The notes: generated by a model not told the origin, from the sequence alone. A stretch of DNA of 64,000 nucleotides from an uncultured Actinomycetes bacterium (GCA_903870905.1 CAIQEU010000039.1:124001-188000); one strand, 5' to 3'. Positions 7,129 through 36,757 are shown, numbered from the stretch's first letter. Made by a program: numbers and translations.

Positions 7129-8413
7129 GGCGGCAGCCTCCGTCGTGGACGTGGGCGATGAACTCCTCGCGGAAGCGGGAGATCGCTGAGTGGATAGAAC
7201 TCGGAATCGACGGACCGAGCACGCAGATCGTGGTCTGCTGCGGGGGCCAGGTGAGACCAGGAGCGATGTTGTCACAGAGGTCGAGGAGCAGATCAACGTC
7301 CTCCATGCGACCGCCACCGTGCTCCAAGCGGTAGAGCACCCGCTCGAGCCATCCCGAACCTTCACGGCAGGGGGTGCACTGGCCGCAGGACTCACGAGAG
7401 AAGAACTTGGTAATCCGCCACGCAGCACGAACCATGCAGCGCGTCTCGTCCATGACGACGATGGAGCCCGATCCGAGCATGGAGTTCTTGGCGGCAACCT
7501 CGTCTTGGCCGAGCGGGGTGTCCAAGTCCTCAGGGAAGAACCACGGAGCACTCACCCCACCGGGGATGATGGCCTTGACGGCCTTGCCACCACGAACTCC
7601 GCCGCCGAGCTCTGGACGCTCGATGAGGTCACGGAACGTCGACTTCACCATCTCGACTTCGAACACGCCCGGGCGCTCCACGTCGCCGGAGAGCGCGAAC
7701 AGGCGCGTGCCCGTTGAGCGGCCCTCACCGAGGGCGGCGAACGCTGCGCCACCGTTGGACACGATCCACGGCAGGTTCGACACGGTCTCCACGTTGTTCA
7801 CCACCGTTGGCTCGCCGTAGAGACCAATCGCCGCTGGGAAGAAGGGTGGCTTGATGCGCGGGAAGCCGCGCTTGCCTTCGAGGGACTCGAGGAGGGCCGT
7901 CTCTTCGCCACAGATGTAGGCACCAGCACCAGGGTGCACCACGAGGTCGAGGGAGAATCCGGATCCAAAGATGTTGCGCCCGAGCGCACCGTGGGCGTAG
8001 GCCTCGTTGATGGCCTGGGTCACCCGCTCGAGTCCGAGGGCGAATTCTCCCCGGATGAAGATGAACGCCTGGGTGACTTGGAGCGCGTAGGCAGCGATGA
8101 TCACGCCCTCGACGAGTTGGTGCGGGTCGCGCTCGATCAGGTAGTGATCCTTGAACGTCGCCGGCTCCGATTCGTCACCGTTGATGACGAGGTAGGTGGT
8201 GGGGTTCTTGCGGAGCATCGACCACTTGCGGCCGGCGGGGAATCCGGCGCCACCTCGACCGAGGAGTGAGGCGGCGTCGACTTCAGCGCAAACAGCTTCC
8301 GGCGTCATCGAGAGCGCCTTCTTCAAGCCCTCGTAGGCACCAGTGGCGAGTGCTCGCTCAATAGTGAAACTGTCGTCGAATGCACGACGTGCGGTGACGA
8401 TGGTGGTGCTCAC
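7118..8413 (-). CDS. nuoF: NADH-quinone oxidoreductase subunit F, NADH/FMN-binding
   Basis: Binds NADH and FMN and is the electron entry point of complex I; 431 residues, normal length. The FMN/NADH glycine-rich motif GRGGAGFPAGRKW lies near residue 52, the GAGAYICGEETALLESLEG segment near residue 165, and the [4Fe-4S] N3 ligands in ESCGQCTPCREGSGW plus a later Cys in TTICVLGPS. The start is GTG, overlapping the nuoE stop as GTGA. Confidence 0.97.
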   Translation of the reverse strand: MSTTIVTARRAFDDSFTIERALATGAYEGLKKALSMTPEAVCAEVDAASLLGRGGAGFPAGRKWSMLRKNPTTYLVINGDESEPATFKDHYLIERDPHQLVEGVIIAAYALQVTQAFIFIRGEFALGLERVTQAINEAYAHGALGRNIFGSGFSLDLVVHPGAGAYICGEETALLESLEGKRGFPRIKPPFFPAAIGLYGEPTVVNNVETVSNLPWIVSNGGAAFAALGEGRSTGTRLFALSGDVERPGVFEVEMVKSTFRDLIERPELGGGVRGGKAVKAIIPGGVSAPWFFPEDLDTPLGQDEVAAKNSMLGSGSIVVMDETRCMVRAAWRITKFFSRESCGQCTPCREGSGWLERVLYRLEHGGGRMEDVDLLLDLCDNIAPGLTWPPQQTTICVLGPSIPSSIHSAISRFREEFIAHVHDGGCRHGR

Positions 8414-9027
8414 TTGGACCCTTCCATCCGTGCAGCTTGGGCCGCGCCCGCAGCAGCACGCTCCTCAGCAATGACGTCCTTCGGCACCTGCAGGCCAACG
8501 GTGCGCTCGACGCGAATGAGGGTTCCATGGCTCGGAATCTCATCGACTCGCCCACCTGCCGCGAGCTCATCAAGCAAGGCATCGAGGGCTTCAGGGGTCG
8601 TCGTGCGAACGAATCGATGGTTGACCTGCACGCAGGGAGCGATGTCGCAGTCGGCGAGGCATTCGGTCTCTTCCAAGGTGAAGAGTCCGTCGGTGGTGGT
8701 CCCGCCAACGGCGCAGCCGAGGCGCTGCTCAGCATGCTCGAGGAGGTCATCGCCACCGGCCAGCATGCAGGCGATGTTGGTGCAGATGCCAACGACGTAC
8801 TTGCCAACGGGATCGGTGTGGAGCATGTCGTAGAACGTGGCCGTCCCGCGGACTTCTGCTGCGGTCACCTCGCAGAGCTCGCCGATCTCGACCATGGCCG
8901 CTTCGGTCAAGTAGCCGTCCTGGCCTTGTGCGAGGTGGCACAAGGGGATCAACGCAGAACGCTTCTTCGGGTAGAGCGCAACGGTGGCTTCGGCCTTCGC
9001 CCGCAGCGCAGGACTGAAGTGACTCAT
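8410..9027 (-). CDS. nuoE: NADH-quinone oxidoreductase subunit E, thioredoxin-like [2Fe-2S]
   Basis: Small iron-sulfur subunit of the NADH module, holding cluster N1a. The thioredoxin-like ferredoxin ligands follow the C-x4-C (CTNIAC) and C-x3-C (CLADC) pattern. The protein has 205 residues; about 35 residues after the conserved domain are alanine-rich and variable. Overlaps nuoD by ATGA and nuoF by GTGA. Confidence 0.96.
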   Translation of the reverse strand: MSHFSPALRAKAEATVALYPKKRSALIPLCHLAQGQDGYLTEAAMVEIGELCEVTAAEVRGTATFYDMLHTDPVGKYVVGICTNIACMLAGGDDLLEHAEQRLGCAVGGTTTDGLFTLEETECLADCDIAPCVQVNHRFVRTTTPEALDALLDELAAGGRVDEIPSHGTLIRVERTVGLQVPKDVIAEERAAAGAAQAARMEGSK

Positions 9028-10382
9028 CGGTCAACCTCTCCCATAACCGGGTCCACCGAAGAAATCACGGCGACCGCGTCGGACAAGAGCCCGCCACGCA
9101 TGAGGAGCGGCAGGGCTTGGAGATTCACGAAACTCGGACCACGCATGTGGAGTCGGTAGGGCTTGGAACCGCCATCGGAGGCGATGTAGCAGCCCAGTTC
9201 ACCACGTGGGGACTCAATGGCCACGTACACCTCGCCTTCGGGCACGGTGAAGCCTTCGGTGAAGACCTTGAAGTGGTGGATGAGTGCTTCCATTGACTGG
9301 TCGATGCGACCACGCGGCGGCGGGGTGACCTTGGCGTTCTGCACCCGGTAGTCACCACGCGGCATCGCTGCGAGGAGTTGGCGGACGATCTTCACCGACT
9401 CGCGAATCTCGTTGAGACGGATGGAGTAGCGGTCGAAGTTGTCGCCGTAGGTGCCGACGATGACGTCGAAGTCGACGGCGTCGTACGCGCAGTACGGCAT
9501 GGTGCGACGAAGGTCCCACGGCACACCGGTCGAACGGAGGAGCGGTCCCGTCACCGAGAGAGCGAGCGCCTCTTCGGCGGTCAGATTGCCGATGCCTTCC
9601 ATACGCTGGCGGAAGATCGTCTGACCAGTGAGGAGCTGGTCGTACTCGTAGCTCCTCGTCTCGACGGTGTTGCAGATGACCTCAACGTCGTCTTCCCAGC
9701 CGTCGGGGAGATCGGCCGCCACACCACCAGGGCGAATGTAGTTGTGGTTCATCCGAACGCCGGTGGTCTTCTCGAAGAACGACAGGATCATCTCGCGCTC
9801 ACGGAAGCCGTAGATCATCATCGAGGTCGAACCCATGTCCATACCGTTCGTCGCCATCCACATGAGGTGCGAGGAAATCCGGTTGAGCTCGGTCATGAGC
9901 ATGCGGATGTAGGTGGCTCGGGCGGGAATCTCCACGCCGAGGAGGGCTTCGGTTGCCAAGGAGAACGCCAGCTCTTGGTAGAGCGGGGCCAGGTAGTCCA
10001 TGCGGGTGACGTTGGTGGAACCTTGGATGAACGCCAGGTCTTCAGCCTGTTTCTCCATGCCGGTGTGGAGGTAGCCAATGATCGGCTTGGTGCGGAGCAC
10101 GACTTCACCGTCGAGCTCGAGCATGAGGCGCAGCACACCATGGGTCGATGGGTGCTGCGGGCCCATGTTGATGATCATCGTCTCGTCGTCGGAGCGCTCA
10201 ATGTCGATCTGCGTCGGGTCAATGATTGGACCCTCGGGGAGGCGCAGGACGGCACCGACCTCGCGGCCGAGTTCTTCGGGGGACGTCTTCGATCGCTCGA
10301 AGAGTTCCTGGGAACCTTCTGAGGTCTCCTCGGTTGGCCACAGGGGGCGCTCAACCGCTGTCACGTTCTTGGTTTCGTCCAT
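9024..10382 (-). CDS. nuoD: NADH-quinone oxidoreductase subunit D, 49-kDa type
   Basis: Quinone-site subunit related to the large subunit of [NiFe] hydrogenases but without metal. Conserved stretches include MGPQHPSTHGVLRLMLELDGE near residue 72 (holding the quinone-headgroup His), GYLHTGMEKQAE and the C-terminal SVDPVMGEVDR. Length is 452 residues; about 60 N-terminal residues precede the conserved core and are charged and poorly conserved. It starts three bases after the nuoC stop. Confidence 0.97.
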   Translation of the reverse strand: MDETKNVTAVERPLWPTEETSEGSQELFERSKTSPEELGREVGAVLRLPEGPIIDPTQIDIERSDDETMIINMGPQHPSTHGVLRLMLELDGEVVLRTKPIIGYLHTGMEKQAEDLAFIQGSTNVTRMDYLAPLYQELAFSLATEALLGVEIPARATYIRMLMTELNRISSHLMWMATNGMDMGSTSMMIYGFREREMILSFFEKTTGVRMNHNYIRPGGVAADLPDGWEDDVEVICNTVETRSYEYDQLLTGQTIFRQRMEGIGNLTAEEALALSVTGPLLRSTGVPWDLRRTMPYCAYDAVDFDVIVGTYGDNFDRYSIRLNEIRESVKIVRQLLAAMPRGDYRVQNAKVTPPPRGRIDQSMEALIHHFKVFTEGFTVPEGEVYVAIESPRGELGCYIASDGGSKPYRLHMRGPSFVNLQALPLLMRGGLLSDAVAVISSVDPVMGEVDR

Positions 10383-10385
10383 GAC

Positions 10386-10886
10386 CTACCTCGGACCCGG
10401 CGTCGACTTGAACTGCACGGGGACCCGGCCGATGCCGTAGTCCTTGCGCAGGGGGTGCCCTTCCCACTCCTCGGGGAGCAAGATGCGGCTGAGATCGGGG
10501 TGGCCGGCGAAGCGCACGCCGAGGAGGTCGAACGCCTCACGTTCCATGGCTTCGGTGCCGGGGTAGAGGTCGTAGAGCGAGTCGACGACAGGGTCGGCTG
10601 CAGGAACCTGCACCCGGAGGCGAACCCGCTGCCGCTTCGACATCGACAGCAAGTTGAGGACCACTTCGAACCGCTCGCCGACGACGCCAACGGGCAGCGA
10701 CCGCGTCGGGAAGGTGAGGTAGTCAACAGCACACAGGTCGGCGGCCATCTCAAAGCCATCAGCCTTGAGTGCAGCAACGACGGCGCGGAAATCGCTCCGG
10801 GGAACGAAGGCAATCGTCGCGACGCCCACCCCATCGGTGGATGGGTACGGCTCGAGCGCTGCTGGAGGGGTGATGACGCTCGTCAT
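10386..10886 (-). CDS. nuoC: NADH-quinone oxidoreductase subunit C, 30-kDa type
   Basis: Structural subunit of the complex I connecting module, 166 residues. The signature lies near the C-terminus: [20 protein letters not shown] followed by [11 protein letters not shown]. Nothing indicates a NuoCD fusion: nuoD is separate. The start overlaps the nuoB stop as ATGA. Confidence 0.96.
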
Positions 10887-11440
10887 GACGGACGCGACAC
10901 CCGAACAGCCCCAGGAACTTCAGGGACCCACGGGGCGGAGTCAAGTACCGGGATTGGCTCAGCTCCACGACGTCGGGTGATCTCTCCGCTGCGAACCTTC
11001 TCGTGCAACGTGAGGATTGCGTGCATGAGCGTCTCGGGGGTAGGGGGGCACCCGGGGGCGTAGACGTCGACCGGCACGATCTGGTCGACACCCTGCACCA
11101 CGGCGTAGTTGTTGAACATACCGCCCGAGGATGCGCATACGCCCATAGCGATGACCCACTTGGGCTCCATCATCTGGTCGTAGACCTGGCGGAGCACCGG
11201 TGCCATCTTCTGACTCACTCGACCGGCCACGATCATGAGGTCGGCCTGGCGAGGCGAGTTCCGGAACACCTCCATGCCGAAGCGGGCGAGGTCGAAGTCC
11301 GCTGCCCCAGAGGACATCATCTCAATGGCGCAGCAGGCGAGGCCGAAGGTCGCTGGCCACATCGACGAGCGACGAGCCCACTTGACGAGATCCTCAAGCT
11401 GGCCCGTGAGGAAGTTGTGGGGAAGGTCTTCAAGTCCCAT
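10883..11440 (-). CDS. nuoB: NADH-quinone oxidoreductase subunit B, N2 cluster
   Basis: Carries cluster N2, the last iron-sulfur centre before quinone. Ligands Cys36/Cys37 (ACCAIEMM), Cys102 (GVCASSG) and Cys131 (PGCPPTPE) are all present. I chose the ATG at 11440 (185 residues, [10 protein letters not shown]), which matches the usual family start and lies 5 bases after the nuoA stop. An in-frame ATG at 11551 would overlap nuoA by over 100 bases and is rejected. Confidence 0.95.
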
Positions 11441-11445
11441 CTGCC

Positions 11446-11898
11446 CTATGCCGCCTGTCCGTCGGTTGACTTCGTCGCTGAAATACGGGTGATCGTCGAT
11501 TCGCTGGTGCGAGATGGCATACCTCGGGTCAGAATCACCGCGGGCCCCCACGACAGCGCGCCGTTGGAAACGAGGTACAGCAGTGCAGCGAAGAGCACCA
11601 CCGAGAATGCGGCAACTTCTAAGAAACCGAACAGCGCCAACTGACGGAACACCACCGCGAAGGGGTACATGAACACGATCTCAATGTCGAAGACAATGAA
11701 GATCATGGCCACTAGGTAGAAGCGAACAGGGAAGCGCTGCGGGGGTTCGCGCTCAGGCACAATGCCGCATTCGTAGGGGGCGAGTTTGGCAGCAGTTGGC
11801 TTCTTCCTCGGCGCGAGCAGACCAGATGCCACGAAGGACAGTCCAGCGAACAAGATCCCGACGATCATGAGGATGAAAACCGGCAAGTAGGCGTTCAC
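11446..11898 (-). CDS. nuoA: NADH-quinone oxidoreductase subunit A
   Basis: Membrane subunit of complex I and first gene of the operon. From the GTG at 11898 it encodes 150 residues with three hydrophobic segments. It carries the family signature [20 protein letters not shown] around residue 50, followed by [21 protein letters not shown]. The Cys in YECG is the one exposed in the deactive state of other complexes I. The 35-residue hydrophilic C-terminal tail is variable. The open frame upstream of the GTG is rejected because it lacks family similarity. The next gene to the right is divergent. Confidence 0.94.
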
Positions 11899-12073
11899 AA
11901 GCCTTATTTCTACCACCCCCGCCGGGGTACTTCGGCTACCTCTTCGGCGACGTCGGTGCCTGAATGAAGGCTGAAGACTCTCAGGAAACTCTCCGCTTGA
12001 GGGTGAACTTGTCCTCCGAAGCGCCCTACGGTCGAGACGTCGCCCTCCAGGTGACCCGAGAGAAGGAGACCCC
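11899..12073. promoter_or_regulatory. divergent promoter region nuoA / Ig-repeat protein
   Basis: 175-base intergenic region between two divergent starts. A TACGGT (12027-12032) on the plus strand is a plausible -10 box about 35 bases before the He_PIG gene. On the minus strand a TAGAAA (11907-11912) lies 8 bases before the nuoA GTG. I see no convincing -35 boxes and no full Rex palindrome. Confidence 0.35.
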
Positions 12074-13279
12074 ATGCGAACAACTCAGCGGCTCTACAAA
12101 GCAGCAGTCGCAGTTGGCATCTGCACGATGGCACTCGGCGCCACGGTGCCCGCCGTCGGCGCCGCTACCATGCGTGCCCACGGGCACCACACCCCGCCAG
12201 CGGGACCAACCCTGACCATTGGGACGACGCCCTTGTCGGCCGCCACGGTTGGCACGCCCTACAGCGCAACCCTGACGGTGACCGGCGCCACGGGAACAGT
12301 GACCTGGTCCCCCGCTGATCACAGCAACCTCCCGCGAGGACTCCAGCTCAACCCCGCCACCGGCGTGCTCGCCGGCACGCCTCGGGTGGCTGGCACCGCC
12401 CAGTTCTCGGTCAGCGTCCGCCAGAACGGCACCACATCGTCGGCGAGTGCCACGCTCGCTCTGGTCGTCAACGCAGCGCCGCAAGTCTCGGTGACGTCGG
12501 CGACGTTGCCCACAGCCACGGTTGGCACGTCCTACAGCACCGCGCTGCAAATCACGGGAGGCACGCCCCCGTACCACTTCACCGTCACGAGTGGCGAGCT
12601 CCCTGAGGGCCTCCGGGTCGGCACCGACGGCACCATTGCTGGCACGCCGCGCCACGCTGGCACCTACACCTTCTCGATCGGAATTGGCGACCGTTGGCAG
12701 ACCGCCTCGATTGCGACGTTCTCGATCGTGGTCGTTGGTGGCGCTGCCCCCGCGATCACTCGAGATGTTCTGACGAGCGGCACCGTTGGCGCTGCGTACA
12801 GCGCGACGTTGAGCGCTGCTGGGGGAACCGCCCCCTACACCTGGGCCATCGCTCGAGGCACATTGCCTGCCGGCCTCGCCCTCAACGGCGCAACCGGCGT
12901 CATCAGCGGGACCCCGACGGCAAAGGGGGACTTCCACCTCCTCGTGACGGTGACCGATGCGAAGTCGGTGAGCGCTCGACTCCTCGTTGCCCTGCGCATC
13001 ACGCCGGCGAACACCGTGGTCATCGCCACCCAGTCGCTGCCGAGCGGTACGGTCGGCGTCGCCTACACCGCAGTACTTGCAGCCGGTGGCTACCGCGGCG
13101 ACGCCTCGTGGGCCATCACCAATGGGGCACTTCCTGCTGGGCTGCACCTGAACGTCCACACCGGCGTGATCAGCGGAACGCCGACGACGGCGGTGGTGAC
13201 CTCGTTCACCGTGGTCCTCCTCGCTGGGCACACCCAAGTGAGTCAAGCGCTGTCGCTCACGGTGCTCGCCGCCAGCTGA
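12074..13279 (+). CDS. secreted protein with four He_PIG Ig-like repeats
   Basis: 401 residues. An N-terminal signal peptide (basic start, hydrophobic stretch to about residue 30, Ala-x-Ala) is followed by four tandem domains of about 85-90 residues. Each opens with a TVGxxYSAxL-like motif, then TGGTPPYxFT-like and GLxLNxxTGVIxGTP-like strands, the hallmark of putative-Ig (He_PIG) domains. There is no catalytic domain or visible anchor, so it is probably an extracellular adhesion or structural protein. A strong Shine-Dalgarno (GAAGGAGA) precedes the ATG. Function unknown. Confidence 0.85.
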   Translation: MRTTQRLYKAAVAVGICTMALGATVPAVGAATMRAHGHHTPPAGPTLTIGTTPLSAATVGTPYSATLTVTGATGTVTWSPADHSNLPRGLQLNPATGVLAGTPRVAGTAQFSVSVRQNGTTSSASATLALVVNAAPQVSVTSATLPTATVGTSYSTALQITGGTPPYHFTVTSGELPEGLRVGTDGTIAGTPRHAGTYTFSIGIGDRWQTASIATFSIVVVGGAAPAITRDVLTSGTVGAAYSATLSAAGGTAPYTWAIARGTLPAGLALNGATGVISGTPTAKGDFHLLVTVTDAKSVSARLLVALRITPANTVVIATQSLPSGTVGVAYTAVLAAGGYRGDASWAITNGALPAGLHLNVHTGVISGTPTTAVVTSFTVVLLAGHTQVSQALSLTVLAAS

Positions 13280-13298
13280 ACACCTCGGGTGGTGCACC

Positions 13299-13343
13299 CC
13301 TCGGCCGCCGGCCTGCGCAGGAGCGTGGGTTCGGCGGCCGAGG
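13299..13343 (+). terminator. hairpin after Ig-repeat gene
   Basis: A perfect 12-bp inverted repeat (CCTCGGCCGCCG at 13299-13310 and its complement at 13332-13343) with a 21-base loop sits 20 bases after the He_PIG stop and before the next gene. It has no T-tract, so termination is plausible but unproven. Confidence 0.5.
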
Positions 13344-13360
13344 CGCGTCTTGGCCACCCC

Positions 13361-13366
13361 TAACCT
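13361..13366 (+). promoter_or_regulatory. -10 box of leaderless gene (TAACCT)
   Basis: TAACCT lies exactly 6 bases before the ATG at 13373, and no Shine-Dalgarno is present. The arrangement recurs at several genes in the window. Confidence 0.5.
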
Positions 13367-13372
13367 TGAGCC

Positions 13373-14701
13373 ATGGAATTCAGCGCGCTCACCGATCTGA
13401 CCCAGCGAACCTTCGACGTGGCCATCGTGGGCGGTGGACCCTCGGGTTCGTCGTGCGCCTACTGGCTGGCGGCGGCAGGGTGGGATGTCATCGTGCTCGA
13501 GAAGAAGCACCTCCCCCGCGAGAAGACCTGCGGCGACGGCCTCACTCCTCGCTCGGTCCGGCAACTCGCCGACATGGGGCTCGAGGACGCACTCGCAGCC
13601 ACCGGCCATCGCTACGTTGGCCTTCGGGCCAACGGATTCGGCCAGACGCTCGAGATGGAGTGGCCAACGACCGGCGACTTCCCGAACTACGGCTACTGCA
13701 TCACCCGCTTCGACCTCGACGCCCTCGTGGCGCAGAACGCCGCCCGACACGGTGCGACGGTCTGCACTGGCGCTGAGGTGATTGGGTTAAGCGACCTCGG
13801 ACCGGTTGCCGATGGCCATGGGCTCCGCAGCGTGGGCTCACTCAGCGTCAAGGACAAGGCCAGTGGGATCGTCACCACGGTGAACGCCCGCTACGTGGTC
13901 ATCGCCGACGGCGCGAACTCCCGCATGGGCCGAGCCATCGGCACCGAGCGCAACCGAACCTGGCCGTCGGGACTCGCGCTCCGTGGGTACTTCACCTCAC
14001 CGCGTCACGACGACCCCTTCATCGAGTCCTACCTCGACATCCGCGACGCCGAAGGCAACATCGTTCCTGGATACGGGTGGATCTTCCCGCTCGGCGATGG
14101 TCGCATCAACGTCGGTGTTGGTCTGCTCTCCACCGACAAGCGGTGGAAGGGCGTGAACACCACCAAGCTCATGGAGACCTTCTGCGCCTACGCCGATCCG
14201 TCGTGGGGCATCACCGAGGAGTCTTCGTGTGGACCGGCCACCGGCGGCAAGTTGCCAATGGGCCTCGCGGTTGGTCCACGGACTGGGGCCAACGTCGTCG
14301 TCACCGGTGACGCCGCAGGCACGGTCAACCCCTTCAACGGTGAGGGCATCTCCTACGGCTACGAGACCGGCCGACTCGCGGCCGCTGCACTCGCTCAAGC
14401 CCTCATTGGTGGCGGTGGCGACGCACTCCGTGACTACGACGCTGAACTCGACGCCGCCTACGGCGACTACTACCGGGTCGCTCGAGTCTTCGTTCGGGTC
14501 ATCTCCGACCCCCGCGTCATGGCGCTGTGCGTTGGCGCCGGCATGCGCTCACAGTGGCTGATGGAGGAGATCCTCCGCTTGATGTCGAACCTCTTCCGCC
14601 CCGAGCACCGTGGCGCTGCTGAGGTTGGTTACGACGCGCTCGAGGGGCTCACCCGAGTGCTCCCGGCTGGTCTCGCCGAGAAGCTCCTCATCTCTGCCTG
14701 A
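13373..14701 (+). CDS. geranylgeranyl reductase family flavoprotein, MenJ-like
   Basis: FAD-dependent reductase of polyprenyl chains, 442 residues. The dinucleotide-binding motif VAIVGGGPSGSSCAYWLAAAG lies near residues 15-35, with an acidic Glu ending the second strand (VLEKK). Family signatures follow: the CGDGLTPRSV segment near residue 60, and GDAAGTVNPFNGEGISYGYETG near residue 310. In actinobacteria, relatives such as mycobacterial MenJ saturate the menaquinone side chain. Its position beside complex I fits that role, but archaeal-type lipid reductases share the fold, so the substrate is inferred. Confidence 0.85.
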   Translation: MEFSALTDLTQRTFDVAIVGGGPSGSSCAYWLAAAGWDVIVLEKKHLPREKTCGDGLTPRSVRQLADMGLEDALAATGHRYVGLRANGFGQTLEMEWPTTGDFPNYGYCITRFDLDALVAQNAARHGATVCTGAEVIGLSDLGPVADGHGLRSVGSLSVKDKASGIVTTVNARYVVIADGANSRMGRAIGTERNRTWPSGLALRGYFTSPRHDDPFIESYLDIRDAEGNIVPGYGWIFPLGDGRINVGVGLLSTDKRWKGVNTTKLMETFCAYADPSWGITEESSCGPATGGKLPMGLAVGPRTGANVVVTGDAAGTVNPFNGEGISYGYETGRLAAAALAQALIGGGGDALRDYDAELDAAYGDYYRVARVFVRVISDPRVMALCVGAGMRSQWLMEEILRLMSNLFRPEHRGAAEVGYDALEGLTRVLPAGLAEKLLISA

Positions 14702-25347: not shown

Positions 25348-26211
25348 TTGTCCATGGAACGAATCATCGTGGTTGGGGCCGGGGTGGTCGGCTCCGCAAC
25401 CGGCCGCGCCCTCGCAACAGTCGGCCACGACGTCTCCTTCGTCGACATCTCCTCCGAGCGCGTCGAGCGCCTGATCGCCGATCACTTCACCGCCTCGACC
25501 ACCGTGCAACTTCGCGGTGGAGAGGTTGTCCTCATCTCGGTGCCAACACCATCGACGGGGGCCGGCTTCGATCTGTCGATCATGGAGGGGGCGATCGCCA
25601 CGATCGGGGAGGCAATCGCCACCGCTTCGACGCTCGTCACCGTGGTCATCCGATCCACCGTGCCACCCGGATTCTCCCAGTCCATCGCCATTCCCCTCCT
25701 CGCCTCGAGGAGTGGGAAGTCCCTCGGCGAGGGCTTCTCCGTGGTCTCGGCGCCAGAATTCCTCCGCGAGGCAACGGCGCTCAATGACGCCCTGCACCCC
25801 TGGGTGCTGGTCGTCGGGAGCGATGATCGGGATGGCGCGGAGCGCGTTGCGGCAGCGTTCTCCCCCCTCGGCGGCGAGGTGCACCTCTTCCCGAACGCCA
25901 CCGCAGCCGAGATGGTCAAGATCGTCCACAACTCCTACAACGCTGCGAAGATCAGCTTCTGGAACGAAATCGGGATGGTGTGCAGCGCGATTGACGTTGA
26001 TACCAATGCCGTTGCCGCGGTGGTCTCGAAATCCGCTGAAGCCTCGTTCAACCCGAACTACGGCATTCGCAGCGGATTCGCGTTCGGTGGCGCATGTCTA
26101 CCGAAGGACCTCGACGGACTCATCGGTTTCGCCCATGGCGCCAGCGTGCCCGTCCCCCTCCTCGAGGCCGTCCGCCTCGTGAACCACACCATGGAACATC
26201 TGCCCTCATGA
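25348..26211 (+). CDS. compact UDP-glucose/GDP-mannose dehydrogenase-like protein lacking the C-terminal domain
   Basis: Family members oxidise a nucleotide hexose to the uronic acid with two NAD+. Here: Rossmann motif IIVVGAGVVGSATGRALA, VLISVPTPSTGAGFD, STVPPGF, SAPEFLREATALND, the catalytic Lys region EMVKIVHNSYNAAKISFWNE and the catalytic Cys near residue 250 in FGGACLPKDLDG. The protein stops at 287 residues, whereas the family has about 430: the whole nucleotide-binding C-terminal domain is absent and the loop before VLISVPTP is shortened. Shine-Dalgarno-like AAAGGG precedes the ATG. Overlaps the glycosyltransferase by ATGA. Substrate unknown. Confidence 0.82.
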   Translation: MSMERIIVVGAGVVGSATGRALATVGHDVSFVDISSERVERLIADHFTASTTVQLRGGEVVLISVPTPSTGAGFDLSIMEGAIATIGEAIATASTLVTVVIRSTVPPGFSQSIAIPLLASRSGKSLGEGFSVVSAPEFLREATALNDALHPWVLVVGSDDRDGAERVAAAFSPLGGEVHLFPNATAAEMVKIVHNSYNAAKISFWNEIGMVCSAIDVDTNAVAAVVSKSAEASFNPNYGIRSGFAFGGACLPKDLDGLIGFAHGASVPVPLLEAVRLVNHTMEHLPS

Positions 26212-27389
26212 GTAACCTCATCATCTTCTGCTGGCTCTTTGGGCTCTTCGAAGCACTCTTGATGGGAGTTGGGCTGCTGTGGAATCGCCTGACCCGCCAC
26301 AACCACGTCGACGGTGGCGCAACCGAGGCGATCATCCAGATCACCACGATTGGGAACCACGAAATCGTCAACTGGATCGTGGAGAGCCTGCGTGCCTACG
26401 AACTCCCCTTCCCTCATCAAATTTGGATCGTGACTGAGCCCTTCGTCGAGGAGGGTTTCGTCGGGATGGATGAACTCGTCATCGTTCCCGAAGCGTTCAC
26501 GACCAAGGCGCACTACAAGGCCCGAGCGCAGGAGTACTCGCGCACCGTCCGAGCCGAGCGAGGCCTCGGTCGCCGAGACGTCAAGATCGTCATGCTCGAC
26601 GACGACACGCTCCCCACTCGGAAGTACTTCATCGACGCGTTCAACGCCGACTTCGACGTGTGCGAAGGCATCACGACACCGCGACTCCACTACGGACGCT
26701 TCTTGTCCCACCTCGACGACATGCGGACCCTCAGTTGCCTCGCGCTCTGCTCCAACTTCCAGGGCCACGGGCACCCGGTGTGGGTCCACGGAGAAGGCCT
26801 CTCGATGCGAGGTTCAGCGGAGCAGGCAGTTACCTGGGACTACCCCATTGTCGCGAGTGAGGACTTGGTCTTCGGTCAGAACGCCGTCGAGCGTGGGATG
26901 ACCTGGGGGTTCTTGTGGGAGTACATCCAGCTCACGTCACCGTGGACCTGGAAGGACTTCTTGACGCAGCGTCGTCGATGGGTCTGGGGTAACATCCGCG
27001 CCGTCACCCGGGGGTACATCCCTCCCCTCGGTGCTGCGATGCTGGTGCTGCGCCTCCTCCTCGGCTTCGGCATCGGCGTGCTGTCGGCCCTTGGTGTCGT
27101 GCTCGTACTGTGCAACGTGGTCGCCATCCCCTCGAGCTACTTCACCGTGCTCGTCGTTGCCCTCGTGCTCTGGCTCATTGAGTTCGGGTACGCCGTCTAC
27201 GTCGGGGCGAGCCACGAGGACACGAAGTGGCCGAAGCGCATCAAGGACACCGTGATCGGCATCGTCCTCGCTCCAGTGTCTTCGGCGGCAACGATGCTCG
27301 TGTTCTTCATCGTGCTCTTCAAGGGCGACCCGAAGAAATTCGAGGTCATCGCCAAGGTGCAGCCAAAGGCCGCGACCGCCACATCATGA
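26208..27389 (+). CDS. egghead-like family 2 membrane glycosyltransferase
   Basis: 393 residues from the ATG overlapping the dehydrogenase stop. An N-terminal membrane helix (residues 1-26) is followed by a GT-A domain with the metal-binding DDDT (131-134), HGEGLSMRG, the catalytic-base ED (ASEDLVFG, about 218) and QRRRWVWGN (254-262). Two to three C-terminal membrane helices follow. The motif spacing fits the egghead type (animal beta-1,4-mannosyltransferase) and is also related to bacterial polymer synthases. It likely builds or extends the glycan on the cytoplasmic face. Donor inferred to be the product of the dehydrogenase or a related sugar. Confidence 0.82.
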   Translation: MSNLIIFCWLFGLFEALLMGVGLLWNRLTRHNHVDGGATEAIIQITTIGNHEIVNWIVESLRAYELPFPHQIWIVTEPFVEEGFVGMDELVIVPEAFTTKAHYKARAQEYSRTVRAERGLGRRDVKIVMLDDDTLPTRKYFIDAFNADFDVCEGITTPRLHYGRFLSHLDDMRTLSCLALCSNFQGHGHPVWVHGEGLSMRGSAEQAVTWDYPIVASEDLVFGQNAVERGMTWGFLWEYIQLTSPWTWKDFLTQRRRWVWGNIRAVTRGYIPPLGAAMLVLRLLLGFGIGVLSALGVVLVLCNVVAIPSSYFTVLVVALVLWLIEFGYAVYVGASHEDTKWPKRIKDTVIGIVLAPVSSAATMLVFFIVLFKGDPKKFEVIAKVQPKAATATS

Positions 27390-28771
27390 CCCAGCTCTGG
27401 CCCACCGACGTTCGTCGCAAGTCCACCCAGATCGTCGTGGCGGCCACCGTCGCCCTCCTCATCGCCGGCACCTTGCAGTTGCTCGTCGGCACCTCAAGCG
27501 TCAAGAGTCGGATGTACTCGGTACCAGTGGTGTACCGACCGCCCTTCGTGGATGCCGTCGATCCGATTTTGGCGGCTGAAGAAGGCCTCGGGCCATCGAC
27601 CCTCACCGGGGCACAGAATCCTGATCCATCGATCAAGACCATCCTCGTCTACCAGAGCGGCATCACCGTCTACCGCGGCGGCGTGCTGGTCAAGTCCATC
27701 TCCCGCCAACAATCTCGTTACGGCTTCACCCTCCCCGAGATCGCCGCGTTGGTCGGGGACCCGTCCTTCATCGCCGCATCAGGGAGCGTGGTCACCTTGA
27801 ACGCTGGCCTCATCACCCTCGATGCAACCCGACTCTCACTCGCCGCCCCTGCGACCACCAAGGTGATCATGGAGAACCACCCTGGCGTCTTCATCGGCGC
27901 CACGGACGGGTCCTTCACCGTCAACGGCGCCATCGTGACGTCAACGGCCACGTCGGCTGGAACGTCCCACCATCCGAGCTACCGGCCTTTCGTCGTGGTG
28001 ATGACTGGCGTCATCGCCAACTTCGACCACGCAACGTTTCTGAACTTGGGTTGGGACTGGTTGAACTCCTACGGCGTCTCGCTCATCGGCACCGTACGTG
28101 GCGGAATCAGCCACTCCACGTTCGACCACAACTTCGTTGGGCTCTACACCCAGCGCTTGCAGAACTACACCGTCGCTGATTCGACCTTCGACCACAACGC
28201 CCTCTACGGCATCGACCCGCACACGGGGAGTTTCAACCTCACCATCACCGGCAACACCGCCGAGTACAACGCAGCCCACGGCATCATCTTGTCCAAGGAA
28301 GTCACGGGGAGCACCGTGACCCACAACTACTCGGCCCACAACGGCGAGAACGGCATCATGATCGACGACCAGTCGAACCACACGCTCGTCTCGAACAACA
28401 CCACCGTGGGCAACCGAGGTGACGGCGTCGTCGTGTCCAACTCCACCGGCGTCACCATCGTGGGCAACACCATCCGGATGAACCGCATTGGCGTCAACGT
28501 CTACAGCAACGGGTCGGCTCGCGTCGCCCACAACACCATCGCGAACAACATCTTGCCGGCAGTTGGCACCACCGTTGATCCCTCGAGCAACACCGTCGAT
28601 GGCCCCCACGACACCGAACGGGTGCCACCACCGGTGTGGCACTTGTACGCGGACGTCACCGCATGGTCCATTGCCCTCCTGCTCTACCTCTCGACCTACC
28701 TCATTCGCCGCAAGGAGCGGGCAGTGTTCGCGACCTACCGCCTCAACCCAGCGCAAGAACGGGTGGCATGA
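27386..28771 (+). CDS. membrane-anchored AlgG-like right-handed beta-helix protein (candidate polyuronate C5-epimerase)
   Basis: 461 residues, starting with ATGA overlap on the glycosyltransferase. N-terminal membrane helix at about 15-35; parallel beta-helix from about 165 to 400 with repeating xxxNxxxxNxxxGIxV coils; second membrane helix near 430-450 followed by RRKER. The stretch from LNLGWDWLNSYGV to YGIDPHTGSFNLTI, then HGIILSKEVTGS, resembles mannuronan C5-epimerases of the AlgG type. Those enzymes carry a catalytic DPHD or DPHE motif; here it is DPHT (277-280), with the Asp and His kept and the last acid replaced. Modification of the nascent glycan outside the membrane is the inferred role. 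Confidence 0.78.
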   Translation: MTQLWPTDVRRKSTQIVVAATVALLIAGTLQLLVGTSSVKSRMYSVPVVYRPPFVDAVDPILAAEEGLGPSTLTGAQNPDPSIKTILVYQSGITVYRGGVLVKSISRQQSRYGFTLPEIAALVGDPSFIAASGSVVTLNAGLITLDATRLSLAAPATTKVIMENHPGVFIGATDGSFTVNGAIVTSTATSAGTSHHPSYRPFVVVMTGVIANFDHATFLNLGWDWLNSYGVSLIGTVRGGISHSTFDHNFVGLYTQRLQNYTVADSTFDHNALYGIDPHTGSFNLTITGNTAEYNAAHGIILSKEVTGSTVTHNYSAHNGENGIMIDDQSNHTLVSNNTTVGNRGDGVVVSNSTGVTIVGNTIRMNRIGVNVYSNGSARVAHNTIANNILPAVGTTVDPSSNTVDGPHDTERVPPPVWHLYADVTAWSIALLLYLSTYLIRRKERAVFATYRLNPAQERVA

Positions 28772-28823
28772 GGAGGGGCTGAGGAGGGCGCGAACTCGCC
28801 CGAGATGAACACGATCGAACCAC

Positions 28824-28829
28824 TACAGT
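28824..28829 (+). promoter_or_regulatory. -10-like box TACAGT before glycosidase gene
   Basis: TACAGT lies about 65 bases before the ATG at 28897, inside a 125-base gap. The secreted glycosidase may therefore have its own promoter as well as read-through. Confidence 0.3.
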
Positions 28830-28896
28830 CGCTGCAGGAGAGCTCTTCGAGGACCCAGCTCTCGAGCGCGACGACCCACGCAAGGAGACACCGAGA

Positions 28897-29958
28897 ATGC
28901 ACTGGATCGCCAAGTACGCCAAGGCAGTCGCCACCTCAACCTTCGCCGCCGTCCTCCTCGCTACGTCTGCAGTTGGCGCGACTGCGCAGTCGAGCCACGT
29001 AGCCAAGGTGTACGCCTTGCCGCAGAAGGGCATCGATCTCTTCGTCCAAGACTTCACGTCCATGACCGATGCCCAGGTCAGTGCTGAGGGGACGACCACC
29101 ATGGCCTACGTGAAGAGCCTCGGTGCGAACATCGTCTCGATTGGCTTCCCCTTCTACCAAACGACCTTGACCTCGAGCACCGTGAGCGCAGGATTCGGAA
29201 CGCCAACACCTGCACGGTTGGCGCTGCTCGTTGCGGCAGCCAAGGCAAAGGGCCTCCAAGTGGAGATTCGCCCGCTCCTCGACGAAGCATCCCTCCGTCC
29301 GCGCTGGCGTGGTGTCATTGCTCCAACCTCACCAAGCGCATGGTTCGCGAGCTACCAAGAATTCCTTGCGCCGTACCTGACCATGGGACAGGCCAACAAG
29401 ATCACTGCGGTGCAAGTCTCCAATGAACTCCAGAGCATCAACCCGAGCCCACTGTGGAGGGGACTGCTCAATACATCGAGGGCGATCTACAAGGGCGAGT
29501 ACCAATTCACGAGCGACCAGTGGCCCGTTGGCATGGTGGCGCCCTATAACGCCACCTTCGGCATTGACCTCTACAAGAGCTACAACCTGCCCCCAACCGC
29601 AACAGTTGCCCAACTGCAGGCGGCAATGGCTGGATCCATGACGATCTACAAGACCCCGACGTCCTACTTCCGCACCACGCTCACCGAAGTCGGCATCATG
29701 GCCCAAGACGGTGCCTACACCTACCCAGCCAACGTGAAGCTGTTCGGTCCGCCCGCACCGCAGACCCTCGACCCTGCGATTCAGGTCAACTGGTTCAAGG
29801 CAGCGTGCGGACTGGTTCGGGCTGACCAGATGCGGGGAATTTTCTTCTGGAGCCTCCGACTGCCTGGAAATCCAGCGGCGCTGCCGAACCTTCCGTATCC
29901 GGCGCGCTTCACCAAGGCGGCTGTTGCCGAGATCAAGGCGTGCTTCGCTGGCAAGTAG
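28897..29958 (+). CDS. secreted TIM-barrel glycosidase-like protein (clan GH-A type)
   Basis: 353 residues with a signal peptide (hydrophobic 10-28, ending near ATAQS). Strong Shine-Dalgarno AAGGAGA. The mature part reads like a (beta/alpha)8 glycosidase: GIDLFVQDF strand 1, ANIVSIGFPFY, VEIRPLLDE, VSNELQS with the Asn-Glu acid/base pair at 176-177, and TEVGI with a candidate nucleophile Glu264. I cannot assign a GH family with certainty; GH113- or GH5-like is a guess. Position after the epimerase-like gene suggests trimming or turnover of the same extracellular polymer. Confidence 0.72.
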   Translation: MHWIAKYAKAVATSTFAAVLLATSAVGATAQSSHVAKVYALPQKGIDLFVQDFTSMTDAQVSAEGTTTMAYVKSLGANIVSIGFPFYQTTLTSSTVSAGFGTPTPARLALLVAAAKAKGLQVEIRPLLDEASLRPRWRGVIAPTSPSAWFASYQEFLAPYLTMGQANKITAVQVSNELQSINPSPLWRGLLNTSRAIYKGEYQFTSDQWPVGMVAPYNATFGIDLYKSYNLPPTATVAQLQAAMAGSMTIYKTPTSYFRTTLTEVGIMAQDGAYTYPANVKLFGPPAPQTLDPAIQVNWFKAACGLVRADQMRGIFFWSLRLPGNPAALPNLPYPARFTKAAVAEIKACFAGK

Positions 29959-30008: not shown

Positions 30009-30084
30009 GGGCCGGTAACTCAGTTGGCAGAGTAACGGACTTTTAATCCGAGAGTCGTGGGTTCGAGCCCCACCCGGCCCACCA
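30009..30084 (+). tRNA. tRNA-Lys (TTT)
   Basis: Acceptor arms GGGCCGG (30009-30015) and CCGGCCC (30074-30080) pair perfectly. The anticodon loop is CTTTTAA, the T-arm contains GGTTCGAGCCC, and discriminator A is followed by an encoded CCA (30082-30084). The outermost anticodon-stem pair is an A-A mismatch. Decodes AAA/AAG lysine codons. Confidence 0.96.
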
Positions 30085-34515: not shown

Positions 34516-35574
34516 GTGTCGCAGCACTCACGCCGCTCGCCGTTGACGATTGCCATCGTCGGAACCGAATTAGCGTCCGTCCTCAATCCGACCGGCGGCT
34601 TGGAGCGCGTCGTGCAGTTGTGGTCGATTGGCCTCGCCGAGCGTGGCTACCGGGTCCTCCTCGTCGATCGCCGACCGAGTGAGCAACCACCGAGGTCAGC
34701 CACCGATGGCGGGGCAACCGTCCTCTCAGCAGACGACGATGACCTCGGCCCGCTCCTCGATGCGCACGGCGTCGACGTCGTGGTCTGCAACAACCGACCC
34801 TTCACGAGCGTCGGTCGTCGAGTGCGGGTGGACTGCTTCCACAACTACCCCCACGGGTGGGATGCTTCCGGGATCGTGGACGAGACCGCACTGGCCGCGC
34901 AACTCACCCGCACGACGCCAACGGCAGTCTCGACGGCGCTCGCTGACCACATCGTGCATCGCTTCGGGCTCCGTGAAGGAGCGGTGGCGACCACGCCACC
35001 ACCCATCGATCCGATCTTCGCCGCCACGTCGCATCGTGGTGGCGGAGGAATCCTGTTCCCGAATCGACTCATGGAGAAGAAGGGGGTGCGCTCCACCCTG
35101 GCCGCGCTCGAGCGTGCTGGCCTCACCGAGCGAGCAACCTTCCTCGACTATACGACACCGTTCCTGCGGACCTCGGCCGAGTTCGTCGAGCTGCGCCAGT
35201 TGATCGTCGACGCCGGGGCGACGCTCGCTCCCCCGTGCACTCCTCCCCAACTCGCAGAGCGCTACGCCGCTGCCGATCTCGTCATCGCCGTTGCCACCGA
35301 GCCCGAGGGTCTCGGTCTCGTCCCCCTCGAGGCCCAGGTGGTCGGCGCTCCACTCGTGACCGCTGGACCAGGTGGCCTCGCAGAAGCCACGTTTCCTCCG
35401 AACCTCCACTGCGAAACCGCCGAGGTGGCCGAGCTCGCCGTCGCCATCACCGCCCGCCTCGCCAGCCCCGACGTGCCAGAACGATCGGCCGTCCTCGATC
35501 GCTACGGCGTTGAGGGAGCAACCGCCCACCTCGTCGCCGCGATCAACCGGGCCCGAGCCACCCAAGGAGTCTGA
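34516..35574 (+). CDS. family 4 glycosyltransferase
   Basis: 352 residues, GTG start. N-terminal IAIVGTELASVLNPTGGLERVVQLWSIGL acceptor-side Rossmann loop; GGGGILFPNRLMEKKGV mid-protein (the usual RL-x2-KG hinge); C-terminal donor motif TEPEGLGLVPLEAQVVGAPLV with the E-x7-E pair. GT-B fold, retaining. The downstream gene is a GH63-like hydrolase 4 bases away, so synthesis and breakdown of one glucoside or mannoside (for example glucosylglycerate) is possible but inferred. Confidence 0.82.
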   Translation: MSQHSRRSPLTIAIVGTELASVLNPTGGLERVVQLWSIGLAERGYRVLLVDRRPSEQPPRSATDGGATVLSADDDDLGPLLDAHGVDVVVCNNRPFTSVGRRVRVDCFHNYPHGWDASGIVDETALAAQLTRTTPTAVSTALADHIVHRFGLREGAVATTPPPIDPIFAATSHRGGGGILFPNRLMEKKGVRSTLAALERAGLTERATFLDYTTPFLRTSAEFVELRQLIVDAGATLAPPCTPPQLAERYAAADLVIAVATEPEGLGLVPLEAQVVGAPLVTAGPGGLAEATFPPNLHCETAEVAELAVAITARLASPDVPERSAVLDRYGVEGATAHLVAAINRARATQGV

Positions 35575-35578
35575 CTGC

Positions 35579-36757
35579 ATGTCGATGGACCACCCAGCAC
35601 TGCTCACCGCGGCCCGGACCCTCGCCACCGACGTCCTCAACGCCAACTGGCGAGAGGACGGGGGCTACACGAGCCCCAACCTCGACACCTACCCATGGCA
35701 GTGGCTCTGGGACTCCTGCTTCCACGCCATCATCTGGGCTGCCCTCGGCGACGAGCGCGCCGTTCGTGAACTCGAAGCGGTCTTCACCCACCAAGACGCC
35801 GTGGGATTCGTCCCCCACATGGGGTACCAACTCGACCCCGAGGTGGCCACACCCCTCTGGGGCCGGAGTGGGTGCTCATCGATCTCCCAGCCCCCCATGT
35901 TCGGCCACGCGCTCTGCGAGCTGCACCGCGCTGGTCTCCCCGTTGGTCACTTGGTGGAACGAGCGGTGGCGGGAATTGCGTTCTTCGGCGAACACCGCCG
36001 GACGAACACTGGCCTGCTCCGGATCGTGCACCCTTGGGAGAGTGGCGCCGACAACACCCCGCGGTGGGACCGCTTCTGCCCCGGTGGATTCGACAAAGCG
36101 CGGTGGATGACCGCGAAGATTGCCATGCTCGACACGATTTCGTTCGGGCCAACGGGCGCCCCGCTGCACAACCCCGCCTTCGACGTCGCTCCGGTGAGCT
36201 TCGCCGCACTGGTGGCGATGAACGCCGCGGACATGGGGGCCACCTTCAACGTGCCCGAGCTCTCAAACCTCGCTGTCGAGCTCGGCGACGCCGTCGCATC
36301 GACCTTCGACCCCAGTCGAGGCACCTGGGTCGATCAGCTCGGCGACGGCGCGCCCGCTGGCGATGACGACGTCATCGACGCGCTCTTCGGACTCTTCGTC
36401 GACCGTCGCCCCGAGGCGCGTGCCACCGTCGCCGATGCACTCACGAACGAGGAACGGCTCGCTGCCCCCTTTGGACCCTGTGCGGTCAGTCGATCACACC
36501 CAGGCTTTGATCCGACCGGCTACTGGCGCGGGCCGCAGTGGCCGCACCTCACCTACCTCCTCGCGCTGGCCTGTCGAGCAGCCGGGCTCGATCACGAGGC
36601 GGCGCTCGCCGAAGATGGGTTGCTGCGCGGTGCCGTGCACTCCACCTTCGGTGAGTACATCAACCCGTTCACCGGAGGACCACTCGGCGCGCATCCACAG
36701 AGCTGGACCGGCCTCTCCATCGTCCATGCAGCCCATCGAGACCGCAGCGCACGGTGA
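35579..36757 (+). CDS. GH63-like (alpha/alpha)6 glycosidase, glucosyl/mannosylglycerate hydrolase-like
   Basis: 392 residues; Shine-Dalgarno AAGGAG 9 bases before the ATG. Visible: the YPWQWLWDSCFHAIIWAALGD segment with a candidate Asp, GFVPHMGYQ, HPWESGADNTPRWD, GYWRGPQWP and FGEYINPFTGGPLG with a candidate Glu. These fit the clan of trehalase-like barrels that includes mannosylglycerate and glucosylglycerate hydrolases. No signal peptide, so cytoplasmic. Pairing with the GT4 gene suggests turnover of a compatible solute or storage glycoside. Slightly shorter than characterised relatives (about 440). Confidence 0.78.
   Translation: MSMDHPALLTAARTLATDVLNANWREDGGYTSPNLDTYPWQWLWDSCFHAIIWAALGDERAVRELEAVFTHQDAVGFVPHMGYQLDPEVATPLWGRSGCSSISQPPMFGHALCELHRAGLPVGHLVERAVAGIAFFGEHRRTNTGLLRIVHPWESGADNTPRWDRFCPGGFDKARWMTAKIAMLDTISFGPTGAPLHNPAFDVAPVSFAALVAMNAADMGATFNVPELSNLAVELGDAVASTFDPSRGTWVDQLGDGAPAGDDDVIDALFGLFVDRRPEARATVADALTNEERLAAPFGPCAVSRSHPGFDPTGYWRGPQWPHLTYLLALACRAAGLDHEAALAEDGLLRGAVHSTFGEYINPFTGGPLGAHPQSWTGLSIVHAAHRDRSAR

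Follow-up and report, generated by a model that had tools for sequence, protein, structure and literature searches.

The window analyzed here, a stretch of 64,000 nucleotides from the 2.1 Mb draft genome of an uncultured Actinomycetes bacterium, contains four co-directional open reading frames on the + strand, all of them pointed out in an earlier note on this DNA. The first (25354..26211) encodes a short nucleotide-sugar 6-dehydrogenase of 285 aa, with ATG 25354 as the likelier start and TTG 25348 as another possible one. It is followed by genes for a membrane GT2 protein of 393 aa (26208..27389), an AlgG-related beta-helix protein of 461 aa (27386..28771) and a predicted secreted GH113 hydrolase (28897..29958), behind which lies a tRNA-Lys (30009-30084). 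Both ATGA overlaps that the note had placed among the first three genes were found, at 26208-26211 for dehydrogenase and GT2 and at 27386-27389 for GT2 and the AlgG-like gene. Since a 125-bp gap (28772-28896) precedes the GH113 gene, the latter stands outside this overlap chain. Alg44, AlgK/E, AlgX, acetylases and AlgL were not recognized among the genes around the module.

The dehydrogenase matches the Pfam domains PF03721 (NAD-binding) and PF00984 (central), which upholds its earlier assignment as a nucleotide-sugar 6-dehydrogenase, here in a short form for which Pfam gave no match to the third, C-terminal nucleotide-binding domain. The catalytic Cys, Lys and Asp are kept (GFAFGGACLPKD), and the motif reads GGACLPKD. 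AlgD, the Pseudomonas GDP-mannose 6-dehydrogenase (1mfz), was the top PDB match of the protein (4.7e-38; next, 2.3e-28) and again came first when the family profile was compared with PDB chains (5.8e-64; next, 5.1e-60); UDP-glucose 6-dehydrogenase families matched the window enzyme too, under their cut-offs. At -2 from the GG motif stands Ala, as in AlgD, whereas UDP-glucose dehydrogenases have Gly. The pair Tyr/Arg that precedes the catalytic Cys at -12/-9 was dropped as a GDP-mannose marker, being partly common to some UDP-glucose-type enzymes. The short dehydrogenases (9 homologues of 285-338 aa, none with the third domain) form a single clade (100/100) outside the AlgD-type and UDP-glucose-type enzymes, which are full-length at 428 aa or more. 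Judging from its sequence, the window enzyme is probably a GDP-mannose 6-dehydrogenase. A role as housekeeping UDP-glucose dehydrogenase was rejected, since a full-length enzyme of that kind is encoded elsewhere in the genome, on contig 62. Elsewhere, full-length AlgD-type dehydrogenases (GFAFGGSCLPKD) were seen on Nonomuraea and Streptomyces replicons (L072 and L073); actinobacteria therefore have two kinds of probable GDP-mannose dehydrogenase.

Short enzymes are also known from brown algae. Saccharina GMD1 (320 aa) and GMD2 (315 aa) carry GGxCLPKDV close to the C-terminus and produce GDP-mannuronate, as shown by HPLC and MS, and algal GMD is reported to be unlike bacterial GMD at V17, A146, V147 and P257 (PMC4782291). 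We took about 315-320 aa, the motif at 259-267 and V17/A146/P257 as the reference for the brown-algal type. At matching offsets, a comparison of reported positions only and not of directly aligned sequences, the actinobacterial short forms have V (V17) in 9/9, A (A146) in six and P (P257) in seven. The window enzyme itself has V, E and A there, with E and A as in AlgD, and carries Glu after FLR, where the algal enzymes carry Ala. In size and reported residues, the short dehydrogenase appears to resemble brown-algal GDP-mannose dehydrogenases, more clearly so in the relatives than in the window.

The GT2 protein (PF13632, 87 bits) has a hydrophobic N-terminus, LDDD, SED and QRRRW motifs and then about three hydrophobic stretches, from which its membrane helices were judged by eye. 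A QRRRW motif with C-terminal membrane helices is typical of processive GT2 enzymes, and the processive type proposed previously agrees with the DxD, ED and QxxRW motifs and the by-eye helices found here. Its sole close relative in the sample, in G478 (locus L011), lies directly behind a short dehydrogenase and shares 49-50% identity and all three motifs. No relative of solved structure was found, and structure prediction gave a pLDDT of 44. Phmmer at E 0.01 returned no match between the window GT2 and the Alg8-like protein from an alginate-type operon of Rhizobium (L071), and hhalign against the NodC/HAS-like GT2 of related loci found nothing, a weak test given the few sequences. The GT2 at most related loci is NodC/Alg8-like, and the type present at the other module loci matches the L071 Alg8-like protein at 3.9e-18 (phmmer); the window's GT2 is therefore of another type, at the same place in the module. 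We regard it as a candidate polyuronate synthase. The L071 run (5787-13933) lies on a plasmid of Rhizobium sp. BG6, in a record without gene annotation there, and encodes a full-length AlgD-like protein, an Alg8-like one, a further one that by eye alone may resemble Alg44, and one of 1246 aa of which part is AlgG-like.

Pfam detects Beta_helix/NosD repeats in the third protein, whose best named family is NCBIfam AlgG and whose first match by sequence is P. syringae AlgG (4ozz, E 6.4e-17). Its model, with pLDDT >90 over most of the helix, retrieved AlgG structures at Foldseek ranks 1-4 and aligned with AlgG 4nk6/4nk8 at Z 39.6 (rmsd 2.6, 321 aligned), compared with 30.0 for AlgE4 and 27.1 for NosD. 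These Z values and the family scores (25 bits to the NosD model TIGR04247, cut-off 300) rule out NosD as its identity. The membrane-anchored, AlgG-like protein described before is thus borne out by sequence and by structure search, AlgG being closest and well ahead of NosD, and by a hydrophobic helix at each terminus; the two helices would hold the beta-helix domain outside the membrane. The catalytic Y274, D277, P278 and H279 are kept, with YGIDPH at 274-279 aligning with P. syringae AlgG (residue roles in AlgG from PMC8824271 and PMC11468063). The D320 position of AlgG, after the His, is T280 in the window protein and D, T or S in relatives. At the R345 position, where the Arg presumably has a role in the AlgG active site, the window protein has K304 and relatives have K, R or others. 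Because of these two substitutions and a score far under the cut-off of the AlgG equivalog NF038177 (77 bits versus 700), we consider the protein probably an AlgG-related epimerase homologue and not AlgG itself. The DPH motif is missing from the AlgG homologue that adjoins a GT2 at L026 (10084-11775), although the dehydrogenase there is intact. A second AlgG-homologue locus in G310 (L028, 1518-7394) encodes a GT2, an AlgG-like protein with DAH for DPH and a full-length UDP-glucose-type dehydrogenase, possibly a variant of the module for glucuronate.

The fourth protein scores 56 bits against GH113 (PF22612; cut-off, 27) and its start resembles a signal peptide, so that the secreted GH-A-type glycosidase of the earlier note can be given a family. 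E177 and E264 are invariant across seven GH113 homologues, and the protein also aligns to a GH113 mannanase. Characterized GH113 enzymes cleave neutral mannans (beta-1,4-mannan), and some Bacteroidetes GH113 genes adjoin mannosyltransferase-like GT2 genes (PMC9032380). Paralogues occur in 10 of 100 related genomes, some of them close to glycosyltransferase genes, and the short dehydrogenase in only 2 of the 100 searched; since GH113 paralogues are also present in relatives without a short dehydrogenase, the link between GH113 and the pathway may be incidental. G684 carries rex, proC, ybjN, mshA and the short dehydrogenase in synteny with the window and then two GH113 genes, its contig ending 208 bases after them. 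GH113 is therefore tied to the dehydrogenase in two genera, and because of this shared order the window is unlikely to be misassembled or contaminated. Searches with the four window proteins found no GH113 relative at the other module loci examined; the exception is G684, with GH113 beside its dehydrogenase. A second GH113 gene in the window's own genome (contig 68; L062, 4361-7085) lies immediately before a GT2 gene.

Parts of this gene set recur in other genomes. Among 298 genomes of the order, an AlgG homologue occurs in 4, a short dehydrogenase in 4 and both in 3 (P 3.7e-6), and among 396 genomes of the phylum, an AlgG homologue occurs in 4 and a short dehydrogenase in 5, all 4 AlgG-bearing genomes included (P 5e-9), the P values counting in the window's own genome, from which the question arose, and assuming independence of genomes, which is only partly true. 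In the AlgG-bearing genomes of the phylum, dehydrogenase and AlgG homologue lie within about 3 kb of each other. Dehydrogenase, GT2 and AlgG genes are neighbors at L017 and L018, and at L026 GT2 adjoins AlgG with the dehydrogenase <3 kb away. Fusions of GT2 and AlgG are found in two genomes in opposite orders, the dehydrogenase being followed by GT2::AlgG at L016 (one and the same contig as G178) and by AlgG::GT2 at L027. L025 has the order dehydrogenase-GT2-AlgG with a broken GT2 frame; a fusion there was discounted, the GT2 motifs falling in different frames. Dehydrogenase and GT2 also stand together at a contig end (L040) and, without AlgG, in G478, a pair that links their two steps directly. 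A scan of genome contigs with a three-row alignment found only three loci. The gene set is more than a chance grouping, the dehydrogenase-GT2-AlgG association having turned up again in independent genomes across the phylum. With regard to the gene order noted earlier, the first three families occur together in other Acidimicrobiales, the order to which both the window's genome and MAG SJ307 belong, and in distant Actinomycetota; the exact four-gene order, and indeed the full set with GH113, was found in the window only.

The reading that we favor, with moderate confidence, is a minimal pathway for an alginate-like polyuronate that works at a single membrane and has no Alg8, Alg44, exporter or acetylases encoded at the locus. 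The short dehydrogenase would oxidize GDP-mannose to GDP-mannuronate, with supply from a gene resembling mannose-1-phosphate guanylyltransferase (299 bits to NF052502, under the cut-off of 440) and two phosphomannomutase-type genes of the same genome. The GT2 would then polymerize GDP-mannuronate at the cytoplasmic face and extrude the chain by way of its own membrane helices, in the manner of the streptococcal class I hyaluronan synthase. At the outer face, the AlgG-like enzyme, by virtue of its homology, would carry out C5-epimerization of the emerging chain. Finally, and least firmly, the secreted GH113 protein might trim or recycle the beta-1,4-linked chain or a less oxidized mannan form. 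From the homology and gene association found, we infer a mannuronate-based polymer, the GT2 specificity, the GH113 role and this order of action.

In favor of the pathway we count the best match of the dehydrogenase to AlgD and its Ala at -2 from GG, the agreement of its relatives with the algal enzymes in length and reported residues, the AlgG fold, the catalytic Tyr/Asp/His, the co-occurrence in 4/4 AlgG-bearing genomes, the fusions and the G478 pair. The GDP-mannose supply genes, the separate UDP-glucose dehydrogenase and the GH113 genes beside the G684 dehydrogenase argue for the pathway as well. An epimerized polyuronate made by a minimal exporter-less set in a monoderm, as the earlier note had it, thus gains support from the AlgG fold match and the recurring module. 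Against the pathway we count, for the dehydrogenase, Glu after FLR and the missing third domain; for the epimerase homologue, T/K at D320/R345, 77 bits versus 700 and the DPH loss at L026; for the GT2, a pLDDT of 44 and the lack of a solved or Alg8 match; and for GH113, its presence in relatives without the dehydrogenase and the neutral mannans cut by characterized members (PMC9032380).

Were the polymer based on a different uronic acid, such as glucuronate that derives from UDP-glucose and is epimerized to iduronate, the dehydrogenase would be a divergent UDP-sugar enzyme and the beta-helix enzyme would have shifted its substrate. The separate clade of the short dehydrogenases outside both the AlgD and UDP-glucose types, the matches of UDP-glucose 6-dehydrogenase families under their cut-offs and the two substituted AlgG positions are all compatible with this alternative, yet AlgD ranks first in the PDB whether the single protein or the family profile is compared, and the relatives agree in size and signature residues with algal GDP-mannose dehydrogenases of proven function. 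Moreover, the AlgG/AlgE-fold C5-epimerases known so far act on mannuronan. GH113, too, is a mannan family (PMC9032380), and we judge the use of another uronic acid improbable.

Less probable still is that the GT2 makes a beta-mannan, neutral or mixed, with the dehydrogenase and AlgG-like protein modifying just some of its residues or another glycan and GH113 degrading the backbone. The action of GH113 enzymes on beta-1,4-mannan, the mannosyltransferase-like GT2 genes next to some of them in Bacteroidetes (PMC9032380) and a window GT2 that is not Alg8-like would suit such a product; however, dehydrogenase and GT2 form a constant pair even without AlgG at L011, the fusions of AlgG with GT2 suggest that the chain leaving the synthase is uronic, and G684 is the exception among the other module loci examined in having GH113 relatives. 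That dehydrogenase and GT2 instead add single or few uronic acids to a heteropolymer, lipid or wall glycan, with the beta-helix protein as a structural or lyase-type relative, would fit a GT2 without close solved relatives and a fold common to lyases and hydrolases, but we hold it to be the least probable of these alternatives given the processive-type QRRRW motif and C-terminal helices and the kept epimerase Tyr, Asp and His.

The proposed polyuronate pathway can be set beside known systems. With the Pseudomonas/Azotobacter alginate operon (algD-alg8-44-K-E-G-X-L-I-J-F-A), it shares the core of a GDP-mannose dehydrogenase family member, a GT2 and an AlgG-family epimerase; in contrast, the window has a short two-domain dehydrogenase, a GT2 without detectable Alg8 similarity and a membrane-anchored epimerase homologue that is fused to GT2 in two relatives, and no Alg44, AlgK/E, AlgX, acetylases or lyase were seen at its locus. 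The streptococcal hasA-hasB pair, hyaluronan synthase and UDP-glucose dehydrogenase, is likewise a minimal exporter-less machine for a uronate polymer in a monoderm, whereas for the window another sugar nucleotide would be expected, with an additional C5-epimerase outside the cell and without a UDP-GlcNAc step. Like GH113 beta-mannanases, the window hydrolase exceeds the Pfam cut-off and has both catalytic glutamates, but it adjoins a predicted polyuronate pathway and its probable role would be in synthesis or turnover and not in feeding. Like the window, the brown-algal pathway (short GMD, ManC5-E) has a dehydrogenase of about 285-325 aa whose GGxCLPKD motif lies close to the C-terminus, and this form is proven active in Saccharina (PMC4782291). 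The algal epimerase carries DPHD where the window has DPHT; among bacteria, Actinobacteria are reported to hold the closest relatives of ManC5-E (PMC11468063).

Descriptions of alginate synthesis have so far come from brown algae and Gram-negative bacteria. Alginate operons were found mostly in Pseudomonas in a 2020 census of synthase-dependent polysaccharide operons (PMC7112194), a 2024 study stated that Streptomyces with alginate lyase are not known to possess an alginate synthesis pathway (PMC11468063), and our search of the open-access literature found no report of a cluster of such kind in Actinomycetota. If the proposed pathway is real, the recurring dehydrogenase-GT2-AlgG module would bring alginate-like synthesis, with far less machinery, into cells that have one membrane. 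The modules also bear on the source of brown-algal alginate and on the identity of the algal mannuronan synthase GT2. An actinobacterial origin of the algal genes was proposed (PMC8307928) and later doubted, with weak support for GMD and Actinobacteria closest for ManC5-E (PMC11468063). Bacterial relatives of GMD and ManC5-E in one place make this question testable, and with small gene sets the question of the synthase becomes so too. It is conceivable, though we think it doubtful, that the donor of the algal pathway has living relatives in these actinobacterial modules, in which case the short dehydrogenase would be the bacterial counterpart of algal GMD, the AlgG homologue would be kin of ManC5-E and the adjoining GT2 would show the type of the mannuronan synthase. 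Farther along the window (34516-36757), a GT4 gene is followed by an MGH1-like glycoside hydrolase gene (PF22422, 187 bits), a pair with a possible function in the synthesis and hydrolysis of mannosyl- or glucosylglycerate.
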